Part shown: positions 16,367-32,635 of the stretch, piece by piece
How positions within the stretch are numbered: the first letter of the stretch is position 1
How the letters are laid out: every line of letters begins with the position of its first letter
From: Pelagibacterium sediminicola
GTDB taxonomy: Bacteria > Pseudomonadota > Alphaproteobacteria > Rhizobiales > Devosiaceae
DNA: 49,139 bases
NCBI RefSeq assembly: GCF_003390885.1
Contig: NZ_QMEL01000013.1
Location: forward strand, 1-49,139
Reading direction: 5' to 3'
Notes under the pieces: generated by a model
Told to the model about the DNA's origin: nothing
Database searches by the model: none
Seen by the model: only the letters and a program-made list of their open reading frames with translations
Position numbers and translations under genes: made by a program

Positions 16367-17392
16367 TCAGTTTTTGAGGAGGGTAAAGCCGTCGGGGGGG
16401 ACGGTGATGCCCACTTCGGTCCCGGGAGACAGCGGTGTTGACACGATGGGTGCGGAGGCCAGAAGGCTCCCGAAGCTGGTTTCTAGCGAATATTCGTAAC
16501 GTGAGCCCAGATAGGTTGCGTCGCGCACCTTCGCCCGGACCGCGCCGCCGTCAAAAACGATACGCTCGGGGCGGACCGATACGGTCGCTTTCGGCCTGTC
16601 TGGCGAGCCGTCGACGGCAAGCGTGAGGTCGCCCGCCTTGAACCTGCCCCCTTCCACGTGGCCCTCGATAAGGTTGGCGTCGCCGATGAAGTCGGCGACG
16701 AACCTCGAATTGGGCTGGTTATAGAGTTCGGCCGGCGTGCCGATCTGCGCGATCCTGCCCTGGTTCATGACGACGATGCGGTCGGAGACCGCCAGCGCCT
16801 CCTCCTGGTCGTGGGTGACATAAACGGCGGTGAGATTGAACCTTCGCTGGAGGTCGCGGATCTCCTGCCGGACCCTTCGGCGCAGCTTGGCATCCACGTT
16901 CGATAGCGGTTCGTCGAACAGCAGCACGTCAGGCTGCTGCACGATGGCGCGCGCGACCGCGACCCGCTGCTGCTGGCCGCCTGAAAGCTCGGACGGCAGC
17001 CTTTTCCCAAGACCTTCGAGACCGAGCATTGCGAGAATTTCGTAACCGCGATCGGCCGCCGCCTTCTTGTCGCCGCCGCGAATGGTCGGGCCATAGGCGA
17101 CGTTCTCGATGACGCTCATATGGGGGAAAAGGGCGTAGGACTGAAAGACCATGCCGACATTGCGTTCGGAGGCGGCGCGGGTCGATACGTCCTCGCCTGC
17201 AATGCGCACCACGCCCTCACTGGGCAGCTCAAGGCCCGCGATCAACCGAAGCGAGGTCGTCTTGCCGCAACCGGACGGGCCAAGGAAGGTGACCAGCTCA
17301 CCGCGTTCGATCGAAAAACTGATACGGTCAACTGCCGTGACCGTCCCATAGCGCTTGACGACGTCGGCAAACTCGATGGCTTTTTCAGTCAT
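16367..17392 (-). CDS. afuC: ABC transporter ATPase, AfuC/FbpC-like
   Basis: 341 residues. Walker A GPSGCGKTT is at 38-46, followed by Q-loop FQSYALFPHM, signature LSGGQQQR, Walker B VLLFDEP with SNVDAKLRR, and switch histidine VTHDQ. A C-terminal TOBE domain contains VSVRPERIVFDGG. The family is usually labelled ferric-iron transport, but the partner binding protein points to phosphorylated sugars (see the binding-protein entry). It is the third gene of a three-gene minus-strand operon, 14 bases after the fused permease. The symbol is by analogy with AfuABC. Confidence 0.85.
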   Translation of the reverse strand: MTEKAIEFADVVKRYGTVTAVDRISFSIERGELVTFLGPSGCGKTTSLRLIAGLELPSEGVVRIAGEDVSTRAASERNVGMVFQSYALFPHMSVIENVAYGPTIRGGDKKAAADRGYEILAMLGLEGLGKRLPSELSGGQQQRVAVARAIVQQPDVLLFDEPLSNVDAKLRRRVRQEIRDLQRRFNLTAVYVTHDQEEALAVSDRIVVMNQGRIAQIGTPAELYNQPNSRFVADFIGDANLIEGHVEGGRFKAGDLTLAVDGSPDRPKATVSVRPERIVFDGGAVRAKVRDATYLGSRYEYSLETSFGSLLASAPIVSTPLSPGTEVGITVPPDGFTLLKN

Positions 17393-17406
17393 GGTTATGC
17401 GGAATC

Positions 17407-19611
17407 CTATTCTGCCGGAATGGCGGGAGGCGTATTCTGAAGTTCACTGCGTCGCCCGAGTTGGCGTCGGCCGATGAGAAGCTGGATGATGACGATCGAG
17501 ACGATCATGATGATCATCAGGACCGCCGAATAGGCGATGGCAAGGGGATACTCGCCGTTCTCGACCCGTCCCATGATATAGGCCGTCGCCATGTTATGGC
17601 GCGCGCTGACGAGGAAAATAACCGCCGATACCGCAGTCATGGCCGTAACGAAGGCATAGACCATGGAGGTAAAAATGGCGGGACGTATGAGGGGCAGCAC
17701 GACGGTGCGCAACGTCGAAAGCCCGCTCGCGCCCATGGTCTGGCTGGCCTCCTCCATTGATCTGTCGATCTGGGAAAGGGCTGCGATGCCGGCGCGCATT
17801 CCGACCGGCATGTTGCGGAACATGAAGCAGATGACGAGGATCGCCATCGTGCCCGTGATGTCGACGGGCGGCACATTGAACGCCGCGACATAGGATACGC
17901 CGACCACAGTGCCCGGAATGGCGAAGCTGAGCATGGTCCCGAACTCGAAGGCGCCCTTGCCGGCAAAATCCTGGCGCGAGATCAGGTAAGCGGTCAGGAT
18001 GCCAACCGCGGTGGTCAGCGGCGCGGCGATGGCCGATACCAGTAGCGTTGTACGCAGCGAATCCCATGCAGAGCCGTAAAGCTCGAGCCCTGTGGCGCCG
18101 ATCTCGAAGGAGAATGCGGTACTCAGATGACGGAAGGTCGGGACCAGATCGAAACGGGCGATGTCGCTGACAAATCCGCCGATGACGACGATGGCGTATA
18201 CGCCGAGTGTAAAAAGCACCCATGGGATCATGGCAAGATAGGCGGCGGTTTTGATTGGACCGGGCAGCGGCGCAAAAAGACCCGCATCGGACTTTCCGGT
18301 CACCGTCACATAGGACTTCTTGCCCAGCCAGCGTGTCTGCAGCCAGAAAGCGCTCAGAGTGAGCGTCAGCAATATGATGGCGAGAACCGAAGCGTTGCCC
18401 AGATCATATCTGGCGCCTACAACGGCAAAGAAGATGCGGATCGAAAGCACGTCATATCCGCCCCCGAGCACGATCGGATTGCCGAAATCGGCAAGGCTTT
18501 CGATAAAGGCGAGAAGGAAAGCGGCGGCGATACCCGGACGCAGCAGCGGCCAGGTGACCGTGCGGAAGGTCGCAAGCGGCTTGCCGCCGAGGGTCTTCGA
18601 GGCTTCTTCCAGCGTGGGGTTTATGGCCTCGACCGTGCCGAGCAGGACAAGGAAGGTGATCGGCGCGAAAGCGAGGACCTGCGCCAGAAGGATACCCGGC
18701 AGGCCATAGACCCAGCGCGTACGGGGTACATCGAAAAGGAAATCGAGCCAGCCGGTCACGACGCCCGTGCGTCCGAACAAAACGATGATGGCGACACCGA
18801 CGACGAAGGGTGGCGTGATGATGGGCAAGATCGAGACTGCCCGGAGCGCGCCCTTGAAGCGGAACCCCGTGCGCGCGACGATCAAAGCCAGCGCAAGGCC
18901 CAGGGCAGTCGAGAAGATGCCCGAAAGAATGCCCAGCATGAGCGTATTGATCACCACGCCGCATCTGCCGTCACCGATGAGGCAATTGAGCCCCCAGAGG
19001 TCGGGAGCCGTCAAACGGGTGATGAAAAGCCCCGGCTGGAAGATGCCGTCGGGAGAAAAAAGGGCGGCCGATCCCAGCCTCAGAATGGGGAAGAAGACAA
19101 AGAGGGACAAAAGGACGACGATAAAGACCACGGCATTGGCGGCAAAGCGCTCGCCGCGACAAAAGCCGCGCACGGCGAGCGCCTCGGCGATAATGCCGGT
19201 GAGGGCAATGCCGAAGACAAAGCCGCCCGGTCCGAGCCCCGGCTGTCCCGCTTCCGCCATCGGAAAGAGCAGGGAAATGCCGCCGATGGCCGGGCCGCGA
19301 AGCCCGATGCCAAACGCTTGAGCGAGGTAAAGGACGGCGGTAATCCCTGCAATCCACGGTACGAGACGGTGTGCCTGCCAGCGCTCGCCGGCCAGGATGC
19401 GCACTGCGGCAAACGCAAGCGCAGCGAGTATGGGTGGTAATAACCACCAACGCCCGATCAACGCTTCCGTGAGCGCAGTTCCGAAAAGGGATGGACCTCC
19501 GCCCATATCGGGAGGGGGGACTTTATACCACGGCAGAACCAGAACGGCGGCCAGCCCCAGAAGAAGCCATAGACCGCCGATCCGGTTCAGCAGAACCAGC
19601 CCGGTTCTCAC
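17407..19611 (-). CDS. afuB: ABC transporter fused double permease, AfuB/FbpB-like
   Basis: 734 residues, two permease halves fused in one chain with roughly 12 or more membrane segments. Each half has its own EAA loop: LEEASKTLGGKPLATFRTV with PLLRPG in the first, and MEEASQTMGASGLSTLRTV with PLIRPA in the second. One gene therefore encodes the whole channel. The N-terminus has an extra hydrophobic region before the first permease half. Its ATG overlaps the stop of the binding-protein gene by four bases (ATGA). Substrate class follows from the binding protein. Confidence 0.87.
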   Translation of the reverse strand: MRTGLVLLNRIGGLWLLLGLAAVLVLPWYKVPPPDMGGGPSLFGTALTEALIGRWWLLPPILAALAFAAVRILAGERWQAHRLVPWIAGITAVLYLAQAFGIGLRGPAIGGISLLFPMAEAGQPGLGPGGFVFGIALTGIIAEALAVRGFCRGERFAANAVVFIVVLLSLFVFFPILRLGSAALFSPDGIFQPGLFITRLTAPDLWGLNCLIGDGRCGVVINTLMLGILSGIFSTALGLALALIVARTGFRFKGALRAVSILPIITPPFVVGVAIIVLFGRTGVVTGWLDFLFDVPRTRWVYGLPGILLAQVLAFAPITFLVLLGTVEAINPTLEEASKTLGGKPLATFRTVTWPLLRPGIAAAFLLAFIESLADFGNPIVLGGGYDVLSIRIFFAVVGARYDLGNASVLAIILLTLTLSAFWLQTRWLGKKSYVTVTGKSDAGLFAPLPGPIKTAAYLAMIPWVLFTLGVYAIVVIGGFVSDIARFDLVPTFRHLSTAFSFEIGATGLELYGSAWDSLRTTLLVSAIAAPLTTAVGILTAYLISRQDFAGKGAFEFGTMLSFAIPGTVVGVSYVAAFNVPPVDITGTMAILVICFMFRNMPVGMRAGIAALSQIDRSMEEASQTMGASGLSTLRTVVLPLIRPAIFTSMVYAFVTAMTAVSAVIFLVSARHNMATAYIMGRVENGEYPLAIAYSAVLMIIMIVSIVIIQLLIGRRQLGRRSELQNTPPAIPAE

Positions 19612-20633
19612 CGTGAGCCGATCTCCGCATCCCAGCGCGAGAGCAGGCGGTTGCGTTCCTCGGACGAGCCGTAGAGCGCGAAATCATAGTCGATCAGCCG
19701 GATGTCCTCTAGATTGGGGGACTGCTCGGGCGTGGCGGCATTGGTGTTTGAGGGAACCTGGAAGGAGTTCGCCTGGGCACCGAGCTCCTGTGCGGCGGGG
19801 GTGAGCACCCAGTCATAGAACAGGCGGGCATTTTCCGGGTTCGGGCCACCTTCGATGATGCTCATCGAGCCGACTTCATAGCCGGTTCCCTCGCAGGGAG
19901 CGACGGCCTGGATCGGGGAGCCCGCAACCGCCTGCGCGACGGCGTCGTGCATGAAGACGATCCCGATGCTGGTTTCTCCCGTGCCGGCCGCCCGGATCGG
20001 AGCCGAGCCGGAGCTCGTATATTGTGCGATATTGTCATCGAGCGCCGTCAGATACTCGAAGGCTTCATCTTCGCCCATCAGCTGAACCAGAGTCGCCAAA
20101 AGAGTATAGGCGGTGCCGGACGAATTTGGATTTGCGACCTGGATTTCGTCGCGATAGGTCTCATCGATAAGGTCGGCCCAGCATTTGGGGGCGTTTTCGC
20201 TCGCGGGGTCGATCAGATCGGTGTTGTACCCGAAGCCCAGCGCGCCAGCATAGACACCCACTGTGCGGTAATCGGCGGTTTCGGCCTGGCGGACCGCCCA
20301 ATCCTGAAGTTCTGCCAGCATCGGCGATTCATAGACCGATGTGAGGCCTTCCTGCGCGGCCTGCAAATGCGGATCGCCAGTGCCGCCCCACCACACGTCG
20401 CCGCGCGGCTGGCCTTCCTCGGCCTTGATCTGGGCATAGGTCTCGCCCGAGGATTTGCGCGTCATCAGGACGTTGATGCCGGTTTCGCGTTGGAACGTTT
20501 CGGTCAGCAGGCGGCAGATGCCCTCGTCGGCGGCGCAGTACAGCACGAGTTCGCCCGACTGCGCATTTGCCACGCCCGCAGCGCCCAATAAAGACGCAGC
20601 GGCGAGACCTGAAACGGCTATGGTGCGGATCAT
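19608..20633 (-). CDS. afuA: ABC transporter binding protein, AfuA-like (probable sugar-phosphate binder)
   Basis: 341 residues with a signal peptide cut after ANA (residue 24). The mature protein looks like the FbpA/AfuA group (LVLYCAADEGICRLL, KSSGETYAQIKAE, NPNSSGTAYTLLA). The adjacent Tyr-Tyr pair that coordinates Fe(III) in FbpA is absent. Instead, His229-Asp230 (in FMHDAV) and Glu253 become 205, 206 and 229 in mature numbering. From memory, these are the hydroxyl-binding residues of AfuA, a hexose- and heptose-phosphate binder once mislabelled as ferric-binding. GGGAGAGAG precedes the ATG. A LacI-type operator variant lies about 90 bp upstream. The exact ligand is unknown. Confidence 0.82.
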   Translation of the reverse strand: MIRTIAVSGLAAASLLGAAGVANAQSGELVLYCAADEGICRLLTETFQRETGINVLMTRKSSGETYAQIKAEEGQPRGDVWWGGTGDPHLQAAQEGLTSVYESPMLAELQDWAVRQAETADYRTVGVYAGALGFGYNTDLIDPASENAPKCWADLIDETYRDEIQVANPNSSGTAYTLLATLVQLMGEDEAFEYLTALDDNIAQYTSSGSAPIRAAGTGETSIGIVFMHDAVAQAVAGSPIQAVAPCEGTGYEVGSMSIIEGGPNPENARLFYDWVLTPAAQELGAQANSFQVPSNTNAATPEQSPNLEDIRLIDYDFALYGSSEERNRLLSRWDAEIGSR

Positions 20634-20722
20634 GATTTCTCTCTCCCAGTATCGGCCAGTTCATGGTGGCCATTGTTGCTGGCCCCCCTCCCGAGGATTC
20701 CAGACAGTTGAGCTTAGCAGCA

Positions 20723-20738
20723 TTGCAATGGTGTGCAA
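20723..20738. promoter_or_regulatory. LacI-type operator, variant (afuA side)
   Basis: TTGCAATGGTGTGCAA matches the perfect site TTGCACAGGTGTGCAA at 14 of 16 positions, including the central GG and the whole right arm. It lies about 90 bp before the ATG of the AfuA-like binding protein, suitable for repression of that operon. Confidence 0.6.
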
Positions 20739-20828
20739 TACCATGCGTCCCGGGAATTGACGTGTCGCCCGGATAAAATCAGTCCCAAACCAAGCGATGC
20801 TCTTTGTGCAGGAGCAGACCAAGACCGT

Positions 20829-20844: not shown

Positions 20845-20948
20845 TTGCCGAGCGCGAATATCGTGTTCTGAGGTGGGCACCTTTCTAAATCCGCTCAAAT
20901 GTTCCGAATTATCTATAGTCTTCAATGGATTATTCTGTGGCCTTGTTT

Positions 20949-20977
20949 TTGCACAGGTGTGCAAAAATTCCTTGACA
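20949..20977 (+). promoter_or_regulatory. Perfect LacI-type operator with adjoining -35 box
   Basis: TTGCACAGGTGTGCAA at 20949-20964 is a perfect palindrome (7-bp arms, central GG), extended by A/T runs on both sides. A consensus -35 box TTGACA follows at 20972-20977. The -10 is less clear; the best candidates lie around 20991-20999. The identical 16-mer occurs upstream of the phosphatase gene near 28.6 kb. The likely ligand is the LacI-family protein encoded at 27.5-28.5 kb. Confidence 0.65.
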
Positions 20978-21052
20978 GACATCCTCGGTATTATACGGTC
21001 GCTGTCGGAGGTGGGCCGCTTCGGTGGCCCGAAAACGGCGGTGGGAGGAAGT

Positions 21053-21124
21053 ATGAGGGATCTTTCGGCGTATCTTTGGGCGAGCGTTTGTCATTGCGAT
21101 GATGCAGTATGGGCAGTCGCCTGA
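21053..21124 (+). CDS. Possible 23-residue leader peptide coupled to permease gene
   Basis: A 23-codon frame (MRDLSAYLWASVCHCDDAVWAVA) starts eight bases after a strong ribosome binding site (GGGAGGA). Its TGA overlaps the ATG of the permease as TGATG. The permease start itself has no recognisable ribosome binding site. The peptide may exist only to deliver ribosomes to the permease, or it may be a regulatory leader. Alternatively the permease starts five codons earlier and this frame is fortuitous. Confidence 0.4.
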   Translation: MRDLSAYLWASVCHCDDAVWAVA

Positions 21125-22956
21125 TGAGTGTGGTCGGCACTCCCGTTGGCCGTGGGGCGGTGCCGGGTTTTTGGCGGAGACTGCGTTACCGCGCCCGCAT
21201 TTCGATGCGCGAGCCGACCACGCTGCTCGGTATTCTGGTCGCGCTGCTGTTTGCCTATCTGATCATCGTTCCGATCGCTTCGCTTCTGGTCGATGCAGGG
21301 AGAGTGCAGTTCGGTGACGAGCGGCGCATCGGGGCCGCTCCTGGCGAATGGACCCTCTACTATATCAGTCGCGCGCTTTTTTCGCCCGTCGCGGGCAATC
21401 TGTTCTGGGCCCCGCTTTTCAACACGCTGTCGGTGGCCATTGGCGCCATTACGATTTCGCTGGCGATCGGCGGGCCGCTGGCCTGGCTTGTGAGCCGGAC
21501 CGATATGTTCGCGCGCCGCTGGTTCGCGACCGCCCTCATCGTTCCCTTCATGCTGCCCGCCTGGACGTTCGCGCTGGCCTGGACGACGCTCTTCAAGAAC
21601 CGTTCGGTGGGCGGCCAGCTTGGATGGTTCGAGGCGATGGGCTTTGCTCCCCCCGACTGGCTTGCCTATGGCCAGGTGCCGATCACCATCATCCTCGCTC
21701 TCAATTATATTCCGTTCTTCATCCTGCTGTTCGGAAATGCCCTGCGGCGTTTCGATAGCCAGCTTGAGGACTCGGCGCGGATGCTTGGTGCGCGGTCCTC
21801 GACCGTCGCCTTCAGGATTATCGGGCCGATGATGCTGCCGGCCTTGATGAGCGCGATCATCCTTGCGTTCGCCAAATGTATCGGGGAGTTCGGTGTCCCC
21901 TATGTGCTCGGCCTGCCGGTCAATTACGATCTGCTGGCAACGGGGCTTTACCGCTCGATTTCCTCGCGCCAGACCGGAGTGGCGGCGGTTCTGGCTGCGG
22001 CCATCATGCTGATCGGCGTCATATCGCTGCTCATCGATGCGCGGCTCGTACGCGAGGCCCGTAAATTCGTGACCGTGGGCGCCAAGGGTGCCATGAGCCG
22101 CAAGAGCGCGCTGGGTCCGCTACGGGTCCCCGCAACGGCATTTGCCGCGCTGATCTTTCTGGTCTCGGTCGGGCTCCCGCTGCTGACCCTTTCGCTGTCC
22201 ACCATCATGCGCGTTCCGGCGAATTTTGCCTGGTCCAATTTCACGCTCGATTACTGGATCGGGACCGATCTTGAAACAGTCGCGCTTCGCACCGGCATTC
22301 TGCTTTCGCCTTCGCTCTGGAGCGCTGCCTGGAATACGCTCACGATCGTGGGTACGGCCTCGATCTGTTCGGGTCTGCTGGGACTTCTGGTCGGCTATGT
22401 GGTCGTGCGCACGCCGGTGCGGCCCCTGGCCGGATTTTTGCGGCAAGTGACGTTCCTGCCCTATCTCGTTCCCGGTATTGCGTTCGCGGCCGCCTACCTT
22501 TCGCTCTTTGCCGTACAGCGCGGTCCCATACCCGCCCTTTACGGCACGGCGGCAATCTTGCTGCTGGCACTTGTCGCCGACCAGATGCCCTATGCCTCGC
22601 GCGCTGGTATCTCCGCCATGATGCAACTGGGCAAGGACCCCGAAGAAGCCGCCCAGATCTCGGGAGCCGGCTGGTTGCGGCGGATGGCCTGGATCGTCGT
22701 GCCGGTCCAGAAGGGCGCGCTGGTCACGGGAATTCTTCTGCCCTTCATTTCGGGGATCAAGGGGTTGAGCCTTTTCGTCATCCTCGCCGTGCCGGCCACC
22801 GATGTTCTCACCACCTATTCCCTGCGGCTGGTCGATTATAATTACACGCAGGCCGCCAATGCTGTGGTGCTGATCATCGCCGCGATCGCCTATTTCGGGA
22901 CGCTTCTGGCCCAGAAACTCACCAAAACCAATCTTGCCGATGGACTGGGGACCTGA
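21124..22956 (+). CDS. ABC transporter fused double permease
   Basis: About 610 residues with two permease halves in one chain, roughly 12 membrane segments. The first EAA loop is LEDSARMLGARSSTVAFRII with MMLPAL. The second is PEEAAQISGAGWLRRMAWIV with VPVQKGAL. This is the ferric or 2-aminoethylphosphonate-like double-permease class, not closely similar by eye to the 734-residue permease on the other strand. The ATG chosen overlaps the leader stop codon; an ATG 15 bases upstream is an alternative without a ribosome binding site. It starts a plus-strand operon of ATPase, two binding proteins and an IMPase-like enzyme, behind a perfect LacI-type operator. Confidence 0.85.
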   Translation: MSVVGTPVGRGAVPGFWRRLRYRARISMREPTTLLGILVALLFAYLIIVPIASLLVDAGRVQFGDERRIGAAPGEWTLYYISRALFSPVAGNLFWAPLFNTLSVAIGAITISLAIGGPLAWLVSRTDMFARRWFATALIVPFMLPAWTFALAWTTLFKNRSVGGQLGWFEAMGFAPPDWLAYGQVPITIILALNYIPFFILLFGNALRRFDSQLEDSARMLGARSSTVAFRIIGPMMLPALMSAIILAFAKCIGEFGVPYVLGLPVNYDLLATGLYRSISSRQTGVAAVLAAAIMLIGVISLLIDARLVREARKFVTVGAKGAMSRKSALGPLRVPATAFAALIFLVSVGLPLLTLSLSTIMRVPANFAWSNFTLDYWIGTDLETVALRTGILLSPSLWSAAWNTLTIVGTASICSGLLGLLVGYVVVRTPVRPLAGFLRQVTFLPYLVPGIAFAAAYLSLFAVQRGPIPALYGTAAILLLALVADQMPYASRAGISAMMQLGKDPEEAAQISGAGWLRRMAWIVVPVQKGALVTGILLPFISGIKGLSLFVILAVPATDVLTTYSLRLVDYNYTQAANAVVLIIAAIAYFGTLLAQKLTKTNLADGLGT

Positions 22957-22961: not shown

Positions 22962-24122
22962 ATGCCAGCAATCACTCTCTATGGAGCCGAGAAGAATTAT
23001 GGCGGCAATGCTGCCAACGCGGTTTCCAACCTCGATCTCGAAATCGATGACGGCGAGTTCATGTGCCTGCTCGGGCCTTCGGGTTGCGGCAAGACCACGA
23101 CGCTGCGCATGATCGCCGGGCTCGAGCATCTTTCGGACGGCAGGATCGCGGTGGGCGAAAGGGTTGTCGACTGCGTCAGCAGTGGCACGTTCGTTTCGCC
23201 CGAAAAGCGCGGCATGGGCCTGGTTTTCCAGAGTTATGCGCTGTGGCCGCATATGACGGTGGAACGCAATACCGATTTCGGCCTTCGGTTGCGCAAGGTT
23301 CCCAGGGCCGAACGCGAGGCCCGCGTTGCCCGGGTCATGGAAACCCTTGGCATCGAAAAATACCGCGACCGCTACCCCTCGCAATTGTCGGGTGGGCAGC
23401 AGCAGCGCGTGGCGCTGGCGCGGATGCTGGCCGTCAATCCGGACGTGCTGCTGCTCGATGAGCCGTTGTCCAATCTCGACGCACGGCTGCGTCTGGAGAT
23501 GCGCGCAGAACTCAAGCGCCTCCACGAAGAGTTCAGGACCACCATCGTCTTCGTGACCCACGACCAGTGGGAGGCCATGACCCTCGCGACATCGATTGCC
23601 GTGATGAACGAAGGCACGCTGCAGCAACGCGGCACCCCCAACGACATCTATGACCGGCCGGCCAACCGCTTCGTCGCCGAATTTGTCGGCAGCCCGCCGA
23701 TCAATATTATCGAAATGGCGGCCGGGAGCCCGCTCGCGGCCTCCGCGCGTACCTATTTCACGAGGCATTTCCCCGCGCTCGATGGCATCGGTTCTGTCGG
23801 AATGAGGCCCGAGGCCCTGGCGATCGCCGCGACGGCGGAAGACGTCCCCTCTGGGGCTTTTGGAGAAGAGGCGACGGTGTCGGGCGTTCTGCCGACCGGT
23901 GGGTCCTGGATCATAGAATTGCAGTGCAAGGGAGCAAAGCTGTTCCTCACCACTCATCTTGCGCCTCATGTGGAGGATGGCGACGGCGTTCAAGTCTACA
24001 TCCGCCCCGAGGCCTTGCACGTCTTTGACGATCAGGGGAACCGTCACGGGAAAGCCGACGATATGCTCGGAACCGGAGCGGGCGCAAAGGCGCGCAAGAC
24101 AGTTCAACCAATGCACGCTTGA
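22962..24122 (+). CDS. ABC transporter ATPase
   Basis: 386 residues. Walker A GPSGCGKTT is at 38-46, with Q-loop FQSYALWPHM, signature LSGGQQQR, Walker B VLLLDEP with SNLDARLR, and switch histidine VTHDQ. The C-terminal half is a TOBE-type regulatory domain (VGMRPEALAI, VYIRPEALHVFDD) extended by a low-complexity tail. The gene begins five bases after the permease stop. It powers the importer made with the fused permease and one or both binding proteins downstream. Confidence 0.88.
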   Translation: MPAITLYGAEKNYGGNAANAVSNLDLEIDDGEFMCLLGPSGCGKTTTLRMIAGLEHLSDGRIAVGERVVDCVSSGTFVSPEKRGMGLVFQSYALWPHMTVERNTDFGLRLRKVPRAEREARVARVMETLGIEKYRDRYPSQLSGGQQQRVALARMLAVNPDVLLLDEPLSNLDARLRLEMRAELKRLHEEFRTTIVFVTHDQWEAMTLATSIAVMNEGTLQQRGTPNDIYDRPANRFVAEFVGSPPINIIEMAAGSPLAASARTYFTRHFPALDGIGSVGMRPEALAIAATAEDVPSGAFGEEATVSGVLPTGGSWIIELQCKGAKLFLTTHLAPHVEDGDGVQVYIRPEALHVFDDQGNRHGKADDMLGTGAGAKARKTVQPMHA

Positions 24123-24152
24123 GGAGGTGGTGCTGAAATGAGGAGATACGGA

Positions 24153-25301
24153 ATGAAAATAACTTCTGGATCGGGCAGGCTGTCTGCGGGGGTCGGTGCA
24201 ATGGCGCTGGCGACCGCGCTGTCCTTGTCGCCTGCGGTGGCGCAAAATGCGTGGGATGCCGAGAATTTCGACCTCGATGCACTGATCGAAGCCGCCCGCG
24301 CAGAACCGCCGATCACGGTTTACGACAGCACCGGAAAGATCGTGGAAATCGCCGAGGCGTTTGCCGCAAAATATGGCGTGGGCGCTACAGGGGTGAAGGT
24401 TTCCACCGGCGCACAGATCGATCAGGTCATGCGGGAAGGGCAGGCGGGCAACGTCGTTGGCGATGTCATCGTGGTCCAGGATGTGCCGCCGGGAATGGCT
24501 CAACTGGTCCCCATGGGGCTGCTCGAAAGCTGGACGCCCCCCGATCTTGTGGACCTCATTCCCGAGACGATGCAGGATCCGGTCATCATCGTTTCGAGCC
24601 CCAACGTATGGACGTACAACACGGAGGTTTACGAGACCTGCCCGGTTAGCAACATCTGGCAACTCACCGAACCCGAATGGAACCGCAAGGTTGCCATGCA
24701 GGACCCGCTGGGCAAGCCGACCTATACGGACTGGTTCAACCAGATGGAGACGCATTTCGACGGCGAAATTGCCCAGGCCTACGAAGCTTATTACGGCAAG
24801 CCGCTCGAGACCGACGAAGATTCCGCCACCAAGGCCTGGGTCAAGGCGCTGGCGGCAAACTCGCCGCTTCTTACCGATTCGGATTCGGCGGCCGGCGATG
24901 CCGTAGGCGCTCGCGGACAGGCCGATCCTTTCATGGGCATGATGGCGACCGCCAAATTCCGTGACAATGCGCCCGATGGTCTGGCGCTCGGACTTTGTAC
25001 CGGGCTCGAGCCGTTCTCGGGCTGGATGTATCCGGGGATCGGCATGATTTCGACCCTGACGGACAGCCCCAACGCGGCGCGTCTGTTCATCCGCTATCTG
25101 CTGACTGAGGAAGGCATCGCTCCGCAAAGCGCCGACGGCAAACTCTCGTCCAACCCCGAGGTGCCCGCCCACTCCAAAGACCAATCGGGCGTCAGCGAAT
25201 ATCTCGATGAAATGATGCCCTACAGCACCCTCACCGCGATCGAAGACTTTGATACGCGTCAGGATTGGCAAGACTTCTGGCGGATCAACTACACCCGCTA
25301 A
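24153..25301 (+). CDS. ABC transporter substrate-binding protein, tandem copy 1
   Basis: About 382 residues with a signal peptide ending near PAVAQ. The mature part is a family-1-like periplasmic binding protein (FDLDALIEAARAEPPITVYD, ANSPLLTDSDSA, SGWMYPGIGMIS). A conserved STGKIVE segment near the start could be an anion-binding loop. I chose the ATG preceded by AGGAG six bases upstream; an ATG five codons earlier also has a possible site. The next gene encodes a clear paralogue, and the two share long identical stretches such as NIWQLTEPE and DWFNQME. No Tyr-Tyr pair typical of ferric binding is in the predicted pocket region, except an EAYYGK that the paralogue changes to EAHYGA. Confidence 0.84.
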   Translation: MKITSGSGRLSAGVGAMALATALSLSPAVAQNAWDAENFDLDALIEAARAEPPITVYDSTGKIVEIAEAFAAKYGVGATGVKVSTGAQIDQVMREGQAGNVVGDVIVVQDVPPGMAQLVPMGLLESWTPPDLVDLIPETMQDPVIIVSSPNVWTYNTEVYETCPVSNIWQLTEPEWNRKVAMQDPLGKPTYTDWFNQMETHFDGEIAQAYEAYYGKPLETDEDSATKAWVKALAANSPLLTDSDSAAGDAVGARGQADPFMGMMATAKFRDNAPDGLALGLCTGLEPFSGWMYPGIGMISTLTDSPNAARLFIRYLLTEEGIAPQSADGKLSSNPEVPAHSKDQSGVSEYLDEMMPYSTLTAIEDFDTRQDWQDFWRINYTR

Positions 25302-25393: not shown

Positions 25394-26509
25394 ATGTCTG
25401 ATTTCAGAAGAGCGCTGTTCGGGTCCATCGCCGCAGGGTTCGCACTTTCCGCCTCGACCGTTGCGGCACAGGATGGATTCGATCTCGACGCAATCATAGA
25501 AGCTGCGCGTACCGAGCCCGCGATAACGGTCTATGCTGTCACTGGAAAAATCGTGGAGACAGCCGCGGCCTTTACGGAAAAATATGGCGTCGCAGCCGAA
25601 GGCCGTAAGGTCAACGAAGCCGATCAGATCGAGCTTTTGATCCGCGAAAGCCAGTCGGGCAACGTCGTTGGGGATGTCTCCGTTGCCGCGGACGTTGCAG
25701 CCATTGCCGCCCAACTCACGCCCACTCGCATCGTCGAGAGTTGGGTGCCGGGCGATATTGAGGCGAAAATCGCTCCCGAATGGCGTGATCCGCTGGTGCT
25801 GGTCAACGACCCCCACGTCTTTACGTATAACACCGAAATCAATCAGACCTGCCCCGTCACCAATATCTGGCAGTTGACCGAGCCGGAATATGCCCGGAAG
25901 GTCGCCATGCTCGATCCGCTGGTCAAGCCCAATTATGCCGATTGGTTCAACCAGATGGAAATGCATTACGACGGGGCCATGGCCGCCGCATACGAGGCGC
26001 ACTACGGAGCGCCCCTCGAGACCTCCGAGAAAAGCGCCACTGCTGCTTGGGTGCGGGCTTATGCGGAAAACCAGCCGCTTCTGGGGGATTCTTCATCGGT
26101 CGCCGAGGCGATCGGCGCCCCCGGCCAGGACGATCCCTTTTTCGGCATTACCTCGGTCGCCAAATATCGCGATAACGCGGCCAGCGATTTCAAGCTGGGT
26201 CTGTGCGTTGGCATGGAGCCTTTCATCGGCTGGCTCTATCCCGGACCTGGTGTCATCGCGGCCGGAACGGACAGCCCCAATGCAGCCCGCCTGTTCATCC
26301 ATTATCTGCTGACCGAGGAAGGGATCGCGCCGCAGGCCGTGGATGGCAAGATGTCCACCAATTCGGACATAAGCCTCCCGGCCGACGAGCCCTCGGGCAT
26401 CTCTGATCATATGGACCGGTTGATGACGTTCTCGATGGAAACGGCCGAAGCTGATTTCGATGCGCGGCAGGATTGGCAAGATTTCTGGCGCCTGCACTAC
26501 TCGCGCTGA
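25394..26509 (+). CDS. ABC transporter substrate-binding protein, tandem copy 2
   Basis: 371 residues, signal peptide cut near TVAAQ. It aligns with the preceding binding protein from the mature N-terminus (FDLDAIIEAARTEPAITVYA) to the C-terminus (DFDARQDWQDFWRLHYSR); I estimate over half of positions identical. The STGK of copy 1 is VTGK here, and several pocket-side residues differ, so ligand range may differ. The start has a strong AAGGAGGA; a longer frame reaching into copy 1 is rejected. Two binding proteins for one channel suggest two related ligands. Confidence 0.86.
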   Translation: MSDFRRALFGSIAAGFALSASTVAAQDGFDLDAIIEAARTEPAITVYAVTGKIVETAAAFTEKYGVAAEGRKVNEADQIELLIRESQSGNVVGDVSVAADVAAIAAQLTPTRIVESWVPGDIEAKIAPEWRDPLVLVNDPHVFTYNTEINQTCPVTNIWQLTEPEYARKVAMLDPLVKPNYADWFNQMEMHYDGAMAAAYEAHYGAPLETSEKSATAAWVRAYAENQPLLGDSSSVAEAIGAPGQDDPFFGITSVAKYRDNAASDFKLGLCVGMEPFIGWLYPGPGVIAAGTDSPNAARLFIHYLLTEEGIAPQAVDGKMSTNSDISLPADEPSGISDHMDRLMTFSMETAEADFDARQDWQDFWRLHYSR

Positions 26510-26518
26510 CAGGGCATT

Positions 26519-26632: not shown

Positions 26633-27457
26633 ATGTCAGCAATAGTGCAGCCCGCGACCAGAACTCCGGCCCTGAGCGATGCGGCGCTCGACAGCCGCCA
26701 TCGTGCGCTCAAGGATCTTGTCCGTGAAGCCGGAGGTATCGCACAGCAGGCATTTGAGGCCAGCTCGGGCGGCTATGAGATGAAGGGACCCCAGGATTTC
26801 CTGACCGAGACCGATGCCGCGGTGGAAAAATTCATCCGCGACCGGCTCGCAACGCTATTCCCCGAAGACGGTTTTGTGGGAGAAGAATCCGGTTCTGCTC
26901 CGGGTGATATCGTCTGGGTGGTCGATCCGATCGATGGGACCGCCAATTTTGCGCGCCGCATTCCCCATTATTGCATTTCCATCGCACTCGCGGCGCACGA
27001 TGAGGTTCTACTCGGGGCGATTTATGACCCTGTCCATGATGAGCTCTATTTCGCGCGAAAGGGCAGGGGGGCAACGCGCAACGGATCGCCGATTTCGGTC
27101 TCGGGAGTCACCGATCCACAGATGGCCTGCGTCGAGATGGGATGGTCGGTGCGCATTTCTAACGCGACCTATCTGGACGTTTTCAGCAAGATACTTGCTG
27201 CCGGTGTCAATATCCGTCGGGCAGCGACCGGCGCGCTCGGACTTGCCTATGTCGCGGATGGGCGCTCGGACGCTTATGCCGAATTGCACATGCATCCCTG
27301 GGATTGCCTCGCCGGACTTCTTCTGGTGCGTGAGGCTGGAGGCAAGGTCTGCGACTACCTGGGCGTGGACTGGCGGGAAGAGGGAGGCGGGGTGCTGGCT
27401 GCCGCGCCGGGATTGGCCGGCCTCATGAGCGAAGCGACGGGGATCGTCTGCCGATAA
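26633..27457 (+). CDS. Inositol-monophosphatase-family phosphatase
   Basis: 274 residues of the IMPase/FBPase metal-dependent phosphatase family. The metal and catalytic motifs are complete: GEE at 83-85, DPIDGTANF at 98-106, and WDCLAGLLLVREAGG near residue 222. No signal peptide is visible, so it acts in the cytoplasm. Such enzymes remove phosphate from inositol 1-phosphate, and others act on histidinol phosphate, PAP or sugar phosphates. Being last in an importer operon argues for action on the imported compound. AGGAG is placed upstream. It converges with the LacI gene seven bases away. Confidence 0.9.
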   Translation: MSAIVQPATRTPALSDAALDSRHRALKDLVREAGGIAQQAFEASSGGYEMKGPQDFLTETDAAVEKFIRDRLATLFPEDGFVGEESGSAPGDIVWVVDPIDGTANFARRIPHYCISIALAAHDEVLLGAIYDPVHDELYFARKGRGATRNGSPISVSGVTDPQMACVEMGWSVRISNATYLDVFSKILAAGVNIRRAATGALGLAYVADGRSDAYAELHMHPWDCLAGLLLVREAGGKVCDYLGVDWREEGGGVLAAAPGLAGLMSEATGIVCR

Positions 27458-27464
27458 GGGGATG

Positions 27465-28496: not shown

Positions 28497-28533
28497 CCTG
28501 TTCGTCGCCGCGTTCCTGTCTGTGAACGGCACA

Positions 28534-28549
28534 TTGCACAGGTGTGCGG
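28534..28549. promoter_or_regulatory. LacI-type operator, variant, next to lacI-type start
   Basis: TTGCACAGGTGTGCGG matches the perfect palindrome at 14 of 16 positions. It lies about 40 bp before the LacI ATG on the minus strand, where it would block expression of the regulator itself. Confidence 0.6.
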
Positions 28550-28584
28550 TAACTGCAAGAAGGGAACGCTGCATCACGGCTCTG

Positions 28585-28613
28585 TTGACCGCTTTGCACA
28601 GGTGTGCAACGAT
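28585..28613 (+). promoter_or_regulatory. Promoter with perfect LacI-type operator in spacer
   Basis: TTGCACAGGTGTGCAA at 28594-28609 is identical to the site at 20949. A -35-like TTGACC stands at 28585-28590, and a weak -10 (AACGAT) would fall 17 bp downstream at 28608-28613. The operator would then occupy the promoter spacer, a classical repression position, for the phosphatase operon on the plus strand. The -10 is poor, so promoter placement is less sure than the operator. Confidence 0.6.
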
Positions 28614-28702
28614 TGCTGGAGGCGCTGCATGAGGAGACCGGCATCGCTCCGATGTGCGTCCATCCCGCACGCCCATTTCCATACCCGAGAAGAGACGACT
28701 GC

Positions 28703-29305
28703 ATGGCCCAGACTGCCCCCCGTTACGACCGCCCCGATATCAGCCTCATCGCTACCGAAGTGGGAAAGGACAGGATTTCGCTCTTTATCGGGGGGTCGGA
28801 TGGGGCGCGCGATCTGGATCTGTTGCGTGAAAACGGCATCACCACGGTGATCAACTGCGCGGTCAATCTTGATTTCAACTATGTTCTCGACCCCGTCCTC
28901 GATGCGGAGCCCGGCAAGGTGGCGACCGGGCATGGCGCCCTTCGCGCCTACAAGATCGGGCTGATAGACGGCGACGGCAATCCGGGCAGGATGATGCTGG
29001 CGGGCTATTACATTCTCGACGGTGCCCTCAACCAGCGCATGCCCGAACGCCCGAGCTACCCTCATCGGGAGCGCGGCAACGTGCTTGTCCATTGCCGAGG
29101 CGGCCGCAGCCGCTCCGTTGCCCTTGTCGCGCTCTATCTCGCCAAGAACCAGCCGCATCTGTTTCCCACCTTCGAGGATGCGCTGGCCCATGTGCGCGAG
29201 CGGCGCGAACTGCGCCGGGACGAGTGGTTTGAAACCCCCAAGCCGATGCTGATCGACGCCGCCAAACGCGCATCCGAGGCCATAGATCTGCTGGAGGGCC
29301 GCTGA
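28703..29305 (+). CDS. Dual-specificity/PTP-type phosphatase (CX5R)
   Basis: 200 residues. The signature VHCRGGRSRS (Cys131, Arg137) is the phosphate-binding loop of cysteine phosphatases, and Asp89 or Asp91 in IGLIDGDGN is a candidate general acid. The fold resembles dual-specificity phosphatases; relatives of this loop type hydrolyse phosphotyrosine, phosphoinositides or inositol phosphates. No signal peptide is present, so it is cytoplasmic. The frame extends upstream across the operator, but the ATG used follows an AGAGA stretch and begins the conserved part. It opens a three-gene operon with a Na/Pi transporter and a metallophosphoesterase. Confidence 0.82.
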   Translation: MAQTAPRYDRPDISLIATEVGKDRISLFIGGSDGARDLDLLRENGITTVINCAVNLDFNYVLDPVLDAEPGKVATGHGALRAYKIGLIDGDGNPGRMMLAGYYILDGALNQRMPERPSYPHRERGNVLVHCRGGRSRSVALVALYLAKNQPHLFPTFEDALAHVRERRELRRDEWFETPKPMLIDAAKRASEAIDLLEGR

Positions 29306-29324
29306 AATCGACTCGACGCTGGTT

Positions 29325-30959
29325 TTGATCGAACTGCTTGGTGCTGGCGCGCTGCTCATATGGGGGTTGCGTCTTATCAAGACGGGCATGCTGCGCGCCT
29401 TCGGCGTTTCGCTGCGCTACTGGATCGGCAAAAGCACCAGAAACCGCGTGTGGGCGGTGTTCGTCGGGATGCTGGCGACCCTTGCGGTCCAGTCCAGCAC
29501 GGCGACTGCGGTCATCACCGCGTCGTTTGCCGCGCGGGATCTCGTCTCCGGCATCATGGCGCAAGCCATCATGCTCGGTGCCAATATCGGCACGAGCCTT
29601 GCTGCCGTCATCCTCACGCTCGATCTTCACTGGCTTTCGCCGGTCCTGATCCTTGTCGGCGTAATATCCTTCAATCGCAGCCGTTATGCCATGGGAAAGG
29701 GCATTGGCCGGGCCGTGCTGGGCCTCGGGCTGATGCTTCTGGCGCTGTCGCTCATGGGGGATGCGACCGAGCCGGTCAGAACTTCGGAAACGGTCATCTT
29801 CATTCTCGCCAGCCTCGGCAATGCACCGGTCTTTGCGTTGCTCTTTGCGGCCGGGCTGGCGTTTGCCGCCACCTCCAGCCTGGCGGTCGTGCTGTTCGTG
29901 GTCCTGCTGGGACAAGCCGGGATCATTACGGCTGAGCTGGCGCTGGTGCTGGTGGCCGGCGCCAATCTGGGCGGAGCCCTGCCGCCGTATCTCGCCGTCC
30001 TGCGCGAAGGTGTGGGCGCACGGCGCCTGGCGGCTGCCAACCTCTCAATACGCGCGATCGGCGCCATTGTGCTCACCGCTATGGCGGGGATCATCGCGCC
30101 ATGGATGAGCCGGGTATGGCCCGATACGGGCGACTTGGTACTGGCCGCGCATATCGGATTTTCCGTCGTCCTGCTTGTGGTCTTCCTGCCCGTTCTCGGC
30201 CCCGTCGTGGAGCTGTTCAAAAAGCTCTTTCCCGATGCGGTGGAAGCCGGTTCGGCGCCGCATTATCTCGATGAAAGCGTGCTGACTACGCCTGCGCTCG
30301 CGCTCTCGGCCGCCGCCCGCGAGACGCTGCGGCTCGGCGATATGGTCAGGGAGATGCTCGAAGCGAGCATGGCAGCGCTCAAATCGTCCGATCCGGGCCT
30401 GCGCGATCGCTTGTCGGCGATCGAGAATGACATCGACAGGGTTCACGCGGAGATCAAGATGTATCTTTCGCGCCTCGGACAAGAAGAACTCGACGAAGAG
30501 GATTCGCGGCGGGCTACGGAAATCATGGCCTATGCGGTCAATCTCGAGCATATCGGCGATATCATAGATAGCGGCCTTTCCGAGCTTGCGGCAAAGAAAG
30601 TGCGACGCAAGCTGGCCTTTTCCGAGGAAGGGTTTGCCGAGATCGTTGCGTTCTACGGCCGCACCTTCGAGATTTTCCAGATCGCCCAGTCGGTGTTCCT
30701 GTCGCGTGATCCCGATCTGGCGCGGAAGCTGGCGGGCTGCAAGACCGATGTCAGGCGTCTCGAGGCGGAATCGGCGGAACGGCACCTTGAACGCCTGCGT
30801 GCGCAACGGACCGAGACGGTCGAAACATCCGGGCTCCACCTTGACATTCTACGCGATCTCAAGCGTGTCAATGCGCATCTGATTTCGGTCGCCTATCCAA
30901 TTCTCGACGATATGGGCGCCCTGCGCGAAACGCGCCTGCGGTCGACGCCGGAGGCCTGA
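29325..30959 (+). CDS. Na/Pi cotransporter family protein with PhoU-like domain
   Basis: About 544 residues. The membrane part (residues 1-290) has the two inverted Na/Pi repeats: VQSSTATAV with MLGANIGTS in the first, and ATSSLAVVL with VAGANLGGA in the second. From about 320 on it is a cytoplasmic helical PhoU-like domain. Homologues such as E. coli YjbB can export phosphate, which would suit disposal of phosphate freed by the neighbouring phosphatases. The start is problematic: no ATG or GTG is in frame. TTG is used here, but GGAGGG lies eight bases before an in-frame ATC at 29307, whose product would begin xDSTLVLIELLGAG. Translation is probably coupled to the upstream gene. Confidence 0.87.
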   Translation: MIELLGAGALLIWGLRLIKTGMLRAFGVSLRYWIGKSTRNRVWAVFVGMLATLAVQSSTATAVITASFAARDLVSGIMAQAIMLGANIGTSLAAVILTLDLHWLSPVLILVGVISFNRSRYAMGKGIGRAVLGLGLMLLALSLMGDATEPVRTSETVIFILASLGNAPVFALLFAAGLAFAATSSLAVVLFVVLLGQAGIITAELALVLVAGANLGGALPPYLAVLREGVGARRLAAANLSIRAIGAIVLTAMAGIIAPWMSRVWPDTGDLVLAAHIGFSVVLLVVFLPVLGPVVELFKKLFPDAVEAGSAPHYLDESVLTTPALALSAAARETLRLGDMVREMLEASMAALKSSDPGLRDRLSAIENDIDRVHAEIKMYLSRLGQEELDEEDSRRATEIMAYAVNLEHIGDIIDSGLSELAAKKVRRKLAFSEEGFAEIVAFYGRTFEIFQIAQSVFLSRDPDLARKLAGCKTDVRRLEAESAERHLERLRAQRTETVETSGLHLDILRDLKRVNAHLISVAYPILDDMGALRETRLRSTPEA

Positions 30960-32635
30960 TGAAGCCACATAAGCTCGCCATTATCGCCGATCCCCACTAC
31001 CATGAGGTCTTTCCCGGTTACGGCTTTGCCGGGGTAGAGTTTGAGGGCAGGGCGGGGGCGTGCATTCGCACGCGGGACGATAGCGCCCGCTCCACGCGCA
31101 TCTTCAATGAAAGCTATCTGGCCTTTCCGGCGGCGCTCGATGCCTGTGCCGCTGAGGGTATCCGCACCGTCGTCATTGCAGGCGACCTCACCGATGACGG
31201 TCAAATCGCGACGATGGACGCCGCGCTCGGTGTTCTTGCACGATACGAGGCCGAGCACGGCATGAGGTTCTTTCTCACCCCCGGCAATCACGATGTCTAT
31301 GGCATGAGCGGGCGGCACCACGCCAAGGCGTTCTATGACCGCGATGGCGGCACGACGCTGGTGACGAGCGACCCGGCGCTTGCACAAGGAGAGAAACGGG
31401 TGGTGATCGATCCGGCCATGTTCTGCCGCGCCTATGACGATCTGGCTCCCCTTTGGGCACCATATGGGGTTCAGCGGCGGCCCTCCGATCTTCATTGGGA
31501 GTCGCCCTTTGGAACCGACGATTCCTTTTCCAGCCGCATGTTCGCGATGCGCTCACCCGATGGTTCGGTTACCCATCACCAGCTGGACCTGAGTTATCTC
31601 GTTGAGCCCGAGCAAGGACTTTGGCTGGTTTCGATCGACGCCAATGTTTTTGAGCCTCGAAACGGTTGCCCCGACAATGGGCGAGAGGATGCGTTTGCCG
31701 ATAGCACCGATGCCGGATGGAACGCGCTGGTGCGGCTAAAGCCATTCATCCTCGACTGGCTCACTGACGTCTCCGCGCGGGCCAGATCTCAGGGCAAGGC
31801 GCTGGTGTGCTTTTCGCACTATCCGGTGCTCGATACCTATGACGGCACCACCGTGCAGGAGTGCGAACTGTTCGGCACGACGCAGGCCGTTCGCCGGACG
31901 CCGCATCCGGAGACGGCCCGCACCGTTGCAGGCACGGGGATCGGGATGCATTTTTCGGGTCATCTCCATATCGCCGACACCAACACCATTGCAGCGTGCG
32001 GCCAAAACATCACCAATGTGGCCATTCCATCGCCTGTTGCCTTCCCTCCGGCCTTTGCGGTGGTGGACGCACACGCGAATGGGCTGAGCGTTGACTACAG
32101 GCATCTCGATTTCCAGAATTTTGACGCCTTTTTCCCGTTCTATCGCGAGGATGAGCCTGACAGTGGTTGGACGCAGGCAGATTCTTATGGCGCGTTTCTC
32201 TACGGCCATGTTCGGGAACTGGTCGCTCATCGCTATCTGCCCAGGGAATGGCCGGTCGAGCTGGCGCGCGCCATCGAGGCGCTTTCTGTACAGGATATGT
32301 TCGCGATAGCTGCGCTTGCAATGCCGATCGACCTTGAAGGGGGCCTTCCAGCGGGGCTTACGCATAAGGGGCTTTCGGGCATCGACCTCGTGACCGACTG
32401 GTATGCGGCGCGAAAGGCAAGCGCTCTCGTCAGCCGATACGTCCCGCAAGAGCGGATGGCGCTCTACCGGCGGCTCATCGAGGTCTATTCCGCGGGCCAC
32501 TGGCCCGATCCCTCGTGCCTCCAGTCGCGGCTAAAACTCTTTTTTGAAATGCTGGAGCGGTATATCGGCGCCGAGGATTGCGGGAGCACGGAAGAGGGAC
32601 CGACGGTCGGGCTGAAGGTACCGGTGAAAGCGTAG
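30959..32635 (+). CDS. Metallophosphoesterase (calcineurin-like)
   Basis: 558 residues. All five binuclear-metal motifs of the calcineurin-like superfamily are visible: DPH (Asp11, His13), GDLTDDG (Asp76), GNHDVYG (Asn110, His111), FSHYP and GHLHIAD. The roughly 200-residue C-terminal extension after the GHLH motif is not a domain I recognise. No signal peptide is seen. Class III phosphodiesterases of this fold include GpdQ, which cleaves glycerophosphodiesters, and cyclic-nucleotide enzymes. Its start overlaps the stop of the phosphate transporter (TGATG). In this context it might open an imported phosphodiester such as glycerophosphoinositol before the IMPase-like enzyme acts; that is inference. 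Confidence 0.86.
   Translation: MKPHKLAIIADPHYHEVFPGYGFAGVEFEGRAGACIRTRDDSARSTRIFNESYLAFPAALDACAAEGIRTVVIAGDLTDDGQIATMDAALGVLARYEAEHGMRFFLTPGNHDVYGMSGRHHAKAFYDRDGGTTLVTSDPALAQGEKRVVIDPAMFCRAYDDLAPLWAPYGVQRRPSDLHWESPFGTDDSFSSRMFAMRSPDGSVTHHQLDLSYLVEPEQGLWLVSIDANVFEPRNGCPDNGREDAFADSTDAGWNALVRLKPFILDWLTDVSARARSQGKALVCFSHYPVLDTYDGTTVQECELFGTTQAVRRTPHPETARTVAGTGIGMHFSGHLHIADTNTIAACGQNITNVAIPSPVAFPPAFAVVDAHANGLSVDYRHLDFQNFDAFFPFYREDEPDSGWTQADSYGAFLYGHVRELVAHRYLPREWPVELARAIEALSVQDMFAIAALAMPIDLEGGLPAGLTHKGLSGIDLVTDWYAARKASALVSRYVPQERMALYRRLIEVYSAGHWPDPSCLQSRLKLFFEMLERYIGAEDCGSTEEGPTVGLKVPVKA

Follow-up and report, generated by a model that had tools for sequence, protein, structure and literature searches.

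The gene cluster at positions 16367-32635 of a 49,139-nucleotide stretch of DNA from Pelagibacterium sediminicola (contig NZ_QMEL01000013.1; the whole stretch is called the window) is probably a LacI-repressed regulon for using phosphorylated compounds of the hexose or cyclitol type as food, by import, internal dephosphorylation, efflux of inorganic phosphate (Pi) and delivery of the polyol to the iol pathway. The cluster itself is confirmed. All of the genes named in the original prediction lie where that prediction placed them: an AfuABC-like importer, a second importer with two binding proteins, an inositol monophosphatase (IMPase)-family phosphatase, a CX5R phosphatase, a sodium/phosphate (Na/Pi) protein with a PhoU domain, a metallophosphoesterase, and a LacI regulator. 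Control by one LacI, also proposed there, has gained stronger support, from a shared candidate operator that is kept in 70 of 80 related loci. The overall interpretation is partly supported and largely holds, with the corrections given below. The genes of the cluster and the candidate LacI sites are as follows.

16367-17392, minus strand: afuC-like ATPase of the ATP-binding cassette (ABC) type (ABC_tran and TOBE_2 domains; best NCBIfam models PhnT2 and a ferric ATPase, both below cut-off)
17407-19611, minus strand: afuB-like permease (two BPD_transp_1 stretches in a single chain; start uncertain)
19608-20633, minus strand: afuA, binding protein of the sugar-phosphate type (matches to 8x1a and 4r72; five ligand residues)
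20723-20738: weaker LacI-type site, 2 mismatches, 90 bp upstream of afuA
20946-20967: candidate LacI operator, a 22-bp perfect palindrome, TTTTTGCACAGGTGTGCAAAAA, between afuA and the second-importer permease gene
21109-22956, plus strand: permease of the second importer (highest median identity of the module members, 76% over 75 loci)
22962-24122, plus strand: ATPase of the second importer (domain and NCBIfam searches)
24138-25301, plus strand: binding protein A of the second importer (SBP_bac_11; AlphaFold2 (AF2) model)
about 25394-26509, plus strand: binding protein B of the second importer (start inferred; the open reading frame (ORF) opens at 25265)
26633-27457, plus strand: IMPase-family phosphatase (Inositol_P, 207 bits; GEE, DPIDGT and WD motifs)
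27465-about 28499, minus strand: LacI-family regulator (PF00356, 46 bits; Peripla_BP_3, 84 bits; ORF to 28682, start inferred from homologues)
28534-28549: candidate LacI operator, 2 mismatches, 35 bp upstream of the inferred lacI start
28594-28609: candidate LacI operator, perfect, between lacI and the next gene
about 28703-29305, plus strand: cysteine phosphatase of the dual-specificity phosphatase (DSP) fold, HCX5R (DSPc, 38.9 bits; cut-off 33.5)
29325-30959, plus strand: Na/Pi cotransporter-family protein (napi) with a PhoU domain (PF02690, 130.5 bits; PhoU, 64.5 bits; start uncertain)
30959-32635, plus strand: metallophosphoesterase, an accessory member (PF00149; D-x-H, GD, GNH, SHYP and GH-x-H motifs)

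The LacI-family protein has both the helix-turn-helix domain (PF00356) and the effector domain (Peripla_BP_3). An inverted-repeat search of eight promoter and intergenic stretches yielded the palindrome at 20946-20967, and the same core occurs at 28594-28609. This 16-base core, TTGCACA-NN-TGTGCAA, is present in both divergent promoter regions, that is, between afuA and the permease gene and between lacI and the DSP gene. With up to 3 mismatches, the window contains seven strand-matches at 5 places, all in these two regions, where 0.19 would be expected; because the pattern was derived from the window, the count is not independent evidence by itself, and relatives provide the independent test. 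In the organism's own 3.24-Mb genome, the only two perfect copies of TTGCACANNTGTGCAA are both in the cluster. At 2 mismatches, two further sites lie in the cluster and seven elsewhere, and a reversed control gave 1. The seven are at C6:2611, C25:8314, C25:504353, C25:559789, C35:137171, C43:100489 and C43:145619.

The relatives are DSP-centred loci from Alphaproteobacteria and Vibrionales, the best 80 of the 196 found, with a reach of 10 kb on each side. Because only these 80 were kept and full flanks are available in 66 of them, counts of absence among the loci are upper limits. The palindrome, at no more than 2 mismatches, is found in 70 of the 80 loci, and 30 of its 130 matches are perfect. 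In a control, 60 permuted half-sites searched over the same loci matched a mean of 2.5 loci and a maximum of 14, with zero perfect matches. Nearly all palindrome matches (127 of 130) are located no more than 500 bp upstream of a gene of the module: imp (55), permease (27), lacI|DSP (17), lacI|permease (11) and others (17). The palindrome is present also in Photobacterium rosenbergii and Vibrio inusitatus. The view that the module is one LacI regulon is therefore supported much more strongly, and we infer that this LacI binds the palindrome.

Sites also accompany afuA at a distance from the second importer. In genome G002, where afuABC is apart from the second importer, a 2-mismatch site is about 95 bp upstream of afuA; in that genome as a whole, LacI, Na/Pi and AfuABC were matched, and the DSP, the metallophosphoesterase and binding protein A were unmatched. 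In genome G004, afuABC is on a separate contig (C9), with a 2-mismatch site about 97 bp upstream of afuA. No palindrome site was found at AfuABC genes outside the module in the five genomes scanned (G015, G082, G100, G099 and G088, of ten fetched), or at the two permease paralogues and two stand-alone napi loci scanned. In two Aminobacter loci (L181 and L185), a perfect site between lacI and afuA does not show control of afuA, because it adjoins lacI and is about 800 bp from afuA. In Alloyangia (L190), iolG is preceded by weak LacI-like sites (2 and 3 mismatches), which are no more than suggestive. Sigma-70 promoter scans of both intergenic regions found none.

Conservation of the gene set was assessed in 101 genomes, with the own genome (G000) counted in, and in the 80 loci. 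These two sets are not independent, because they share members (G010/L120, G012/L119, G006/L122, G004/L123 and G016/L127). The DSP gene occurs in 10 of the 101 genomes, and in all 10 the permease, ATPase, binding protein, IMPase and LacI genes are beside it. The Na/Pi gene adjoins it in nine (not G023), as does the metallophosphoesterase gene (not G016). Within the stretches fetched, AfuABC is adjacent in three (G000, G006 and G010) and iol in three (G000, G010 and G016). Counts among the 80 loci are 78 for the ATPase, 76 for LacI, 75 each for the IMPase and the binding protein, 74 for the permease, 66 for the metallophosphoesterase and 53 for Na/Pi.

The gene grouping is more than chance. The original prediction looked to relatives for co-occurrence of the entire set: the importer, IMPase, DSP and LacI are indeed conserved there, and the metallophosphoesterase and Na/Pi genes prove to be accessories. 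AfuABC, Na/Pi and the metallophosphoesterase are recurrent but optional. In two Vibrionales loci (L131 and L170), the core of permease, ATPase, binding protein, IMPase, DSP and LacI is set between different flanks, and neither locus gave a match to the metallophosphoesterase or Na/Pi. The module is sparse overall, because only 3 of 385 genomes sampled evenly across the class, the own genome among them, have the DSP. A permease search of the same sample, in which 3 candidates per genome were scored under a strict limit, matched 1 of 385 and is uninformative. Distance correlations between module proteins are modest (r of 0.26 to 0.51) and prove nothing.

The closest solved chains to the window AfuA are 8x1a (298 bits), titled as the glucose-6-phosphate (G6P) binding protein VcA0625, and 4r72, which is AfuA (283 bits). 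Ligand residues of AfuA were mapped by Sit and others (PMC4546632), and S37, T150, H205, D206 and E229 of that protein correspond to S62, T174, H229, D230 and E253 here, such that 5 of 5 G6P residues are kept. All five are present in 10 of 12 linked AfuA proteins, and Ser37 is replaced by Thr in the other two. The AfuB permease and AfuC ATPase genes adjoin afuA. Thus, the solved-chain matches and the hexose-phosphate residues bear out the earlier assignment of AfuA to the sugar-phosphate type. AfuA is reported not to bind glucose-1-phosphate, ribose-5-phosphate or fructose-1,6-bisphosphate (PMC4546632). The main text of that paper does not mention inositol, nor does it use the words "phosphatase" or "rhizobi".

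The claim that AfuABC is part of the system stands in that the linkage recurs, and is weakened in that only 3 of the 10 genomes with the DSP have AfuABC adjacent to it and afuA is present in 10 of the 80 loci by a strict count (11 by a looser one that includes L191 at 24% identity). In another locus (L182), afuB and afuC are present, and the locus end is cut before afuA. Outside the module, AfuABC is accompanied by an IMPase-family gene in 4 of the 10 such loci read (G015, which also has Na/Pi, and G099, G100 and G082), a pairing that fits the same logic of import, dephosphorylation and export.

Tandem afuA genes precede afuBC at 2586-4747 of L160 and 2083-4238 of L188, and one of each pair has Thr for Ser37. 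In L111 (G004:C30), a second-importer paralogue is beside a divergent afuA-afuB-afuC set (34-51% identity), and the stretch read contains no LacI site, DSP or IMPase.

Binding proteins A and B of the second importer are 59-60% identical. The AF2 model of binding protein A (pLDDT 91) has the fold of a ferric/AfuA-type binding protein in Foldseek searches, and profile comparison relates this second group of binding proteins to AfuA (96.8%). The His and Asp by which AfuA recognizes hexose are Ala and Lys in the second group, in an alignment of about 20% identity. Seven Lys/Arg positions are invariant in the 26 rows of the second group (K67, K87, R99, K273, R275, K335 and R374), compared with two in the 11 rows of the AfuA group; K193 is kept in 25 of 26, and the count left out four divergent rows of 30, in which most of these positions differ. 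In the model, K67, K87, K193 and K273 lie where strands end or helices begin, which is where proteins of this kind hold ligands. The invariant residues and their placement suggest that the ligand of the second importer is more anionic, such as inositol or a sugar with more than one phosphate.

An alternative importer type, with a permease less than 60% identical, replaces the second importer in 14 of the 80 loci, and 11 of the 14 have IMPase, metallophosphoesterase and Na/Pi. These loci include L182, L183, L190, L192 and L193, and the Lys273 position is Tyr in the four binding proteins of this type that were aligned.

The catalytic motifs of the IMPase, the DSP and the metallophosphoesterase are intact. 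The IMPase belongs to its superfamily by both its Inositol_P score and its GEE, DPIDGT and WD motifs. What had been called a CX5R phosphatase is a DSPc-domain protein, over the curated cut-off, with an HC-x5-R motif and a DSP fold. Its AF2 model has a pLDDT of 92.3, and the best Foldseek match is VHR/DUSP3 (TM-scores 0.55/0.61). All 22 aligned sequences keep the Cys and Arg, and the motif His is Asn in several. The metallophosphoesterase, which may be a glycerophosphodiesterase of the GpdQ type, has the PF00149 domain, matches no NCBIfam model, and has LMO2642 as its sole match among solved chains.

The Na/Pi protein is over cut-off for PF02690, PF01895 and NF037997, and falls short of TIGR01013 (272.7 bits, cut-off 306.15). 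UhpT and GlpT are antiporters that exchange Pi out, unlike ABC importers. Because ABC importers have no built-in exit for Pi and YjbB is reported to export Pi on overexpression (PMC11850910), the Na/Pi-PhoU protein is the proposed Pi exporter.

The adjacent iol pathway is real: IolG, IolCJ, IolD, IolE and IolB are all over their NCBIfam cut-offs. With strict similarity, iol genes are found in 7 of the 80 loci, on either side of the module and in several orientations. In Devosia naphthalenivorans (L121), about 75 bp separate napi from an iolG gene that follows it on the same strand and whose product is over the equivalog cut-off; four linked IolG proteins are over it. A similarity clustering of the module's flanking genes across the 80 loci placed AfuABC (6 genus labels, 9 loci), iolCJ (5 labels, 5 loci) and iolB (5 labels, 5 loci) among the most widespread families. 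In this test, matches to window proteins took precedence among overlapping ORFs, which favours afu and iol. The labels were set by hand from record titles, with Ensifer counted as Sinorhizobium, a single label for all unnamed Rhizobiales, and a separate label for each metagenome-assembled genome. Near these families is a Pfam-unmatched one (5 labels, 7 loci); those with 4 labels are a further unmatched ORF, a second BPD_transp_1 permease, and iatA-like and iatP-like genes. As the receiving pathway that the original prediction supposed, iol is thus supported by recurrent linkage and weakened by the lack of a LacI site at the window iol genes.

In the proposed mechanism, two ATP-driven importers would bring the phosphate ester in whole. 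AfuABC would take a hexose-6-phosphate-like monoester. The ester for the second importer would be related but more anionic, with an inositol (poly)phosphate as the likeliest candidate. Once the ester is in the cytoplasm, its phosphates would be stripped by the IMPase and by the cysteine phosphatase of the DSP type, with help from the metallophosphoesterase in many species. The phosphate that enters with the carbon would exceed demand and would be exported by the Na/Pi-PhoU protein, a step that the proposal needs because of this surplus and because ABC importers do not exchange Pi out. The freed polyol would pass to the adjacent iol pathway, which would be under its own RpiR-type regulator. Repression would come from LacI on TTGCACA-NN-TGTGCAA in the two divergent promoter regions, and would end when an intermediate frees LacI from the DNA.

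Computation established the gene identities, the conserved palindrome, the linkage and the AfuA residues, and we infer the ligands, the order of dephosphorylation, the direction of Pi movement and the LacI effector. Inositol phosphates are favoured as the substrate, mainly because of the spread of iol among the flank families, the iol linkage, and the Devosia iolG that follows napi; this preference and the direction of export are predictions from sequence.

Several observations, in addition to the precedence rule and the omitted rows mentioned above, weigh against this mechanism. Regarding regulation, seven operator-like sites at 2 mismatches are outside the cluster, and no LacI site was found at the iol promoters of the window with up to 3 mismatches. 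Regarding linkage, iol is absent from most of the 80 loci, the Na/Pi gene is in only 53, the metallophosphoesterase in only 66 and afuA in 10. Moreover, the flank test has ties in a generic BPD_transp_1 permease family (6 labels, 9 loci) and a Pfam-unmatched family (6 labels, 10 loci), the latter of which we take to be an antisense ORF. The IMPase is below the inositol-1-monophosphatase equivalog NF008027 (155 bits, cut-off 332) and scores about equally with HisN (154 bits, cut-off 275). The solved folds closest to binding protein A are metal-citrate (MctA) and ferric-binding (FbpA-type) proteins, and the G6P-binding VcA0625, P5PA and AfuA rank 30, 42 and 48, respectively, in Foldseek. Positions T90 and T195 of binding protein A are Glu and Asn in binding protein B, so the two may differ in ligand. 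Finally, importer paralogues (50-62%) in G009, G048 and G004-C30 have no DSP or LacI in the stretches read, and the one in G048 has an IMPase-family gene.

Bacterial phytate use is described as the work of enzymes outside the cytoplasm, with the products then taken up. A tentative possibility is that this module differs, with import and cytoplasmic breakdown of intact inositol polyphosphates (phytate breakdown products), as might be read from the Lys/Arg-rich binding proteins, the DSP and IMPase, Pi export, and iol.

It is doubtful that the system instead scavenges hexose phosphates only, with both importers taking G6P, fructose-6-phosphate or sugar bisphosphates, the IMPase and DSP yielding free sugars, and iol being incidental. 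The complete hexose-phosphate motif in AfuA, the AfuABC-IMPase pairing in 4 of 10 loci outside the module, and the linkage of iol in just 7 of 80 loci are consistent with such a role. The genus spread of iol, which ranks high among flank families and occurs on one or the other side in several orientations, and the Devosia iolG directly downstream of napi argue against it.

A role in phosphorus scavenging, in which the system would obtain phosphate and the Na/Pi protein would import it, is rather unlikely. Na/Pi family members can import Pi, and organic phosphates are phosphorus sources. However, the regulator is a LacI, and 103 of the 107 LacI groups with assigned effectors use carbohydrates (PMC4052901), and the export by YjbB when overexpressed (PMC11850910) points in the opposite direction.

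The original prediction offered glycerophosphoinositol as an example of the substrate, which would make the metallophosphoesterase the first enzyme for this or another phosphodiester. This enzyme is present in 66 of 80 loci with its metal-ligand motifs intact, but L131, L170 and G016, which keep the importer, IMPase, DSP and LacI, gave no match to the metallophosphoesterase, and a simple glycerophosphodiester leaves the cysteine phosphatase unexplained. The core seems not to need a phosphodiesterase, which weakens this example, and glycerophosphoinositol is unlikely to be the core substrate. Uptake of iron or metal-citrate, with the phosphatases as unrelated neighbours, would agree with the public annotation "iron ABC transporter permease" and with the MctA and FbpA-type folds nearest to binding protein A, but is very improbable because AfuA has the G6P residues and the importer and phosphatases share one operator and travel together.

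Beyond the cluster, the window contains the following genes.

13751-15262: CoA-acylating methylmalonate-semialdehyde dehydrogenase, IolA-like, on the other (left) side of the cluster from the iol genes
33855-36618, minus strand: RbsB-type importer (binding protein, permease and ATPase), neighbour of iol, with no LacI site
36727-44504: RpiR-type regulator with iolG, iolCJ, iolD, iolE and iolB (TIGR04380, NF047869, TIGR04377, TIGR04379 and TIGR04378 over cut-off)

A second GFO/IDH/MocA oxidoreductase gene (32646-33785) adjoins iol, and its best NCBIfam model is levoglucosan dehydrogenase (277.6 bits, cut-off 650). Downstream of iol, an SsuA/NMT1-type importer (45030-48461) comprises a 575-amino-acid binding protein, a permease, and a taurine/sulfonate-like ATPase. 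On the minus strand at 4777-12752 are genes for a GntR/FCD regulator, a KduI/IolB-family isomerase, a short-chain dehydrogenase, a cupin, a D-2-hydroxyacid dehydrogenase, and an importer with solute-binding protein, permease and ATPase. This set resembles a cluster for unsaturated uronates from pectin or alginate breakdown.

Soils and waters contain a large pool of organic phosphorus in the form of inositol and sugar phosphates. If the proposal of a LacI-controlled phosphate-ester regulon is correct, bacteria with the module would consume the carbon and give off the phosphate, with a bearing on how plants and algae are supplied with phosphorus. The module is common to Sinorhizobium, Agrobacterium, Devosia, Rhodobacteraceae and vibrios, and the proposal offers a joint function for genes annotated as "iron ABC transporter permease", "inositol monophosphatase" and "dual specificity protein phosphatase".

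Open-access (PMC) literature searches found no account of this gene set, and comparison is with systems that share parts of it. The NCBIfam models that score best or nearly best with the AfuABC-like genes are those of the PhnSTU2 system for 2-aminoethylphosphonate. Uptake of aminoethylphosphonate was considered and rejected, because all three genes score under the curated cut-offs (185<393, 374<458 and 254<593 bits). P5PA, the binding protein of a vitamin-B6-phosphate importer, is of the same family as the window AfuA (238.8 bits), which shares the Asp and Glu of AfuA, whereas P5PA has Ala 205 and Ala 228 (PMC8427247).

The AfuABC system of Actinobacillus (PMC4546632) has homologues of A, B and C and the five ligand residues in common with the present one. 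Nanomolar binding of hexose and heptose phosphates belongs to the Actinobacillus system; here, the ligand is predicted, and the importer is joined by LacI, phosphatases, an Na/Pi protein and a second importer.

The second-importer set is found on pSymB of S. meliloti 1021, and is annotated in strain RCAM1750. This locus shares the IMPase, DSP, metallophosphoesterase, Na/Pi, LacI, permease, ATPase and two binding proteins, and adds a second IMPase and a second DSP; its gene order is other than that of the window, no AfuABC is in the stretch read, and no described function was found for it. The module corresponds approximately to SMb20150 to SMb20161, tags obtained by counting from SMb20155-8 (PMC4414408) and SMb20163/4 (PMC12542648). 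The ABC operon SMb20155-8 is reported to be strongly upregulated in stationary cells when the small RNA ecpR1 is deleted (PMC4414408). In RCAM1750 (L200, 24876-25861), the second DSP copy is followed by a 369-bp gene annotated as a MurR/RpiR regulator, at the end of the rhizobial module.

Relative to iol regulons, an iol set adjoins the cluster and is linked in 7 of 80 loci; unlike the LacI module, the window iol genes have no LacI site and are beside an RpiR-type regulator. Finally, Na/Pi-PhoU proteins of the YjbB/NptA type (PMC11850910) have the same Na_Pi_cotrans and PhoU domains as the present protein. Here, in contrast, the Na/Pi protein is joined to a LacI-type organophosphate regulon, in which it is predicted to export phosphate.

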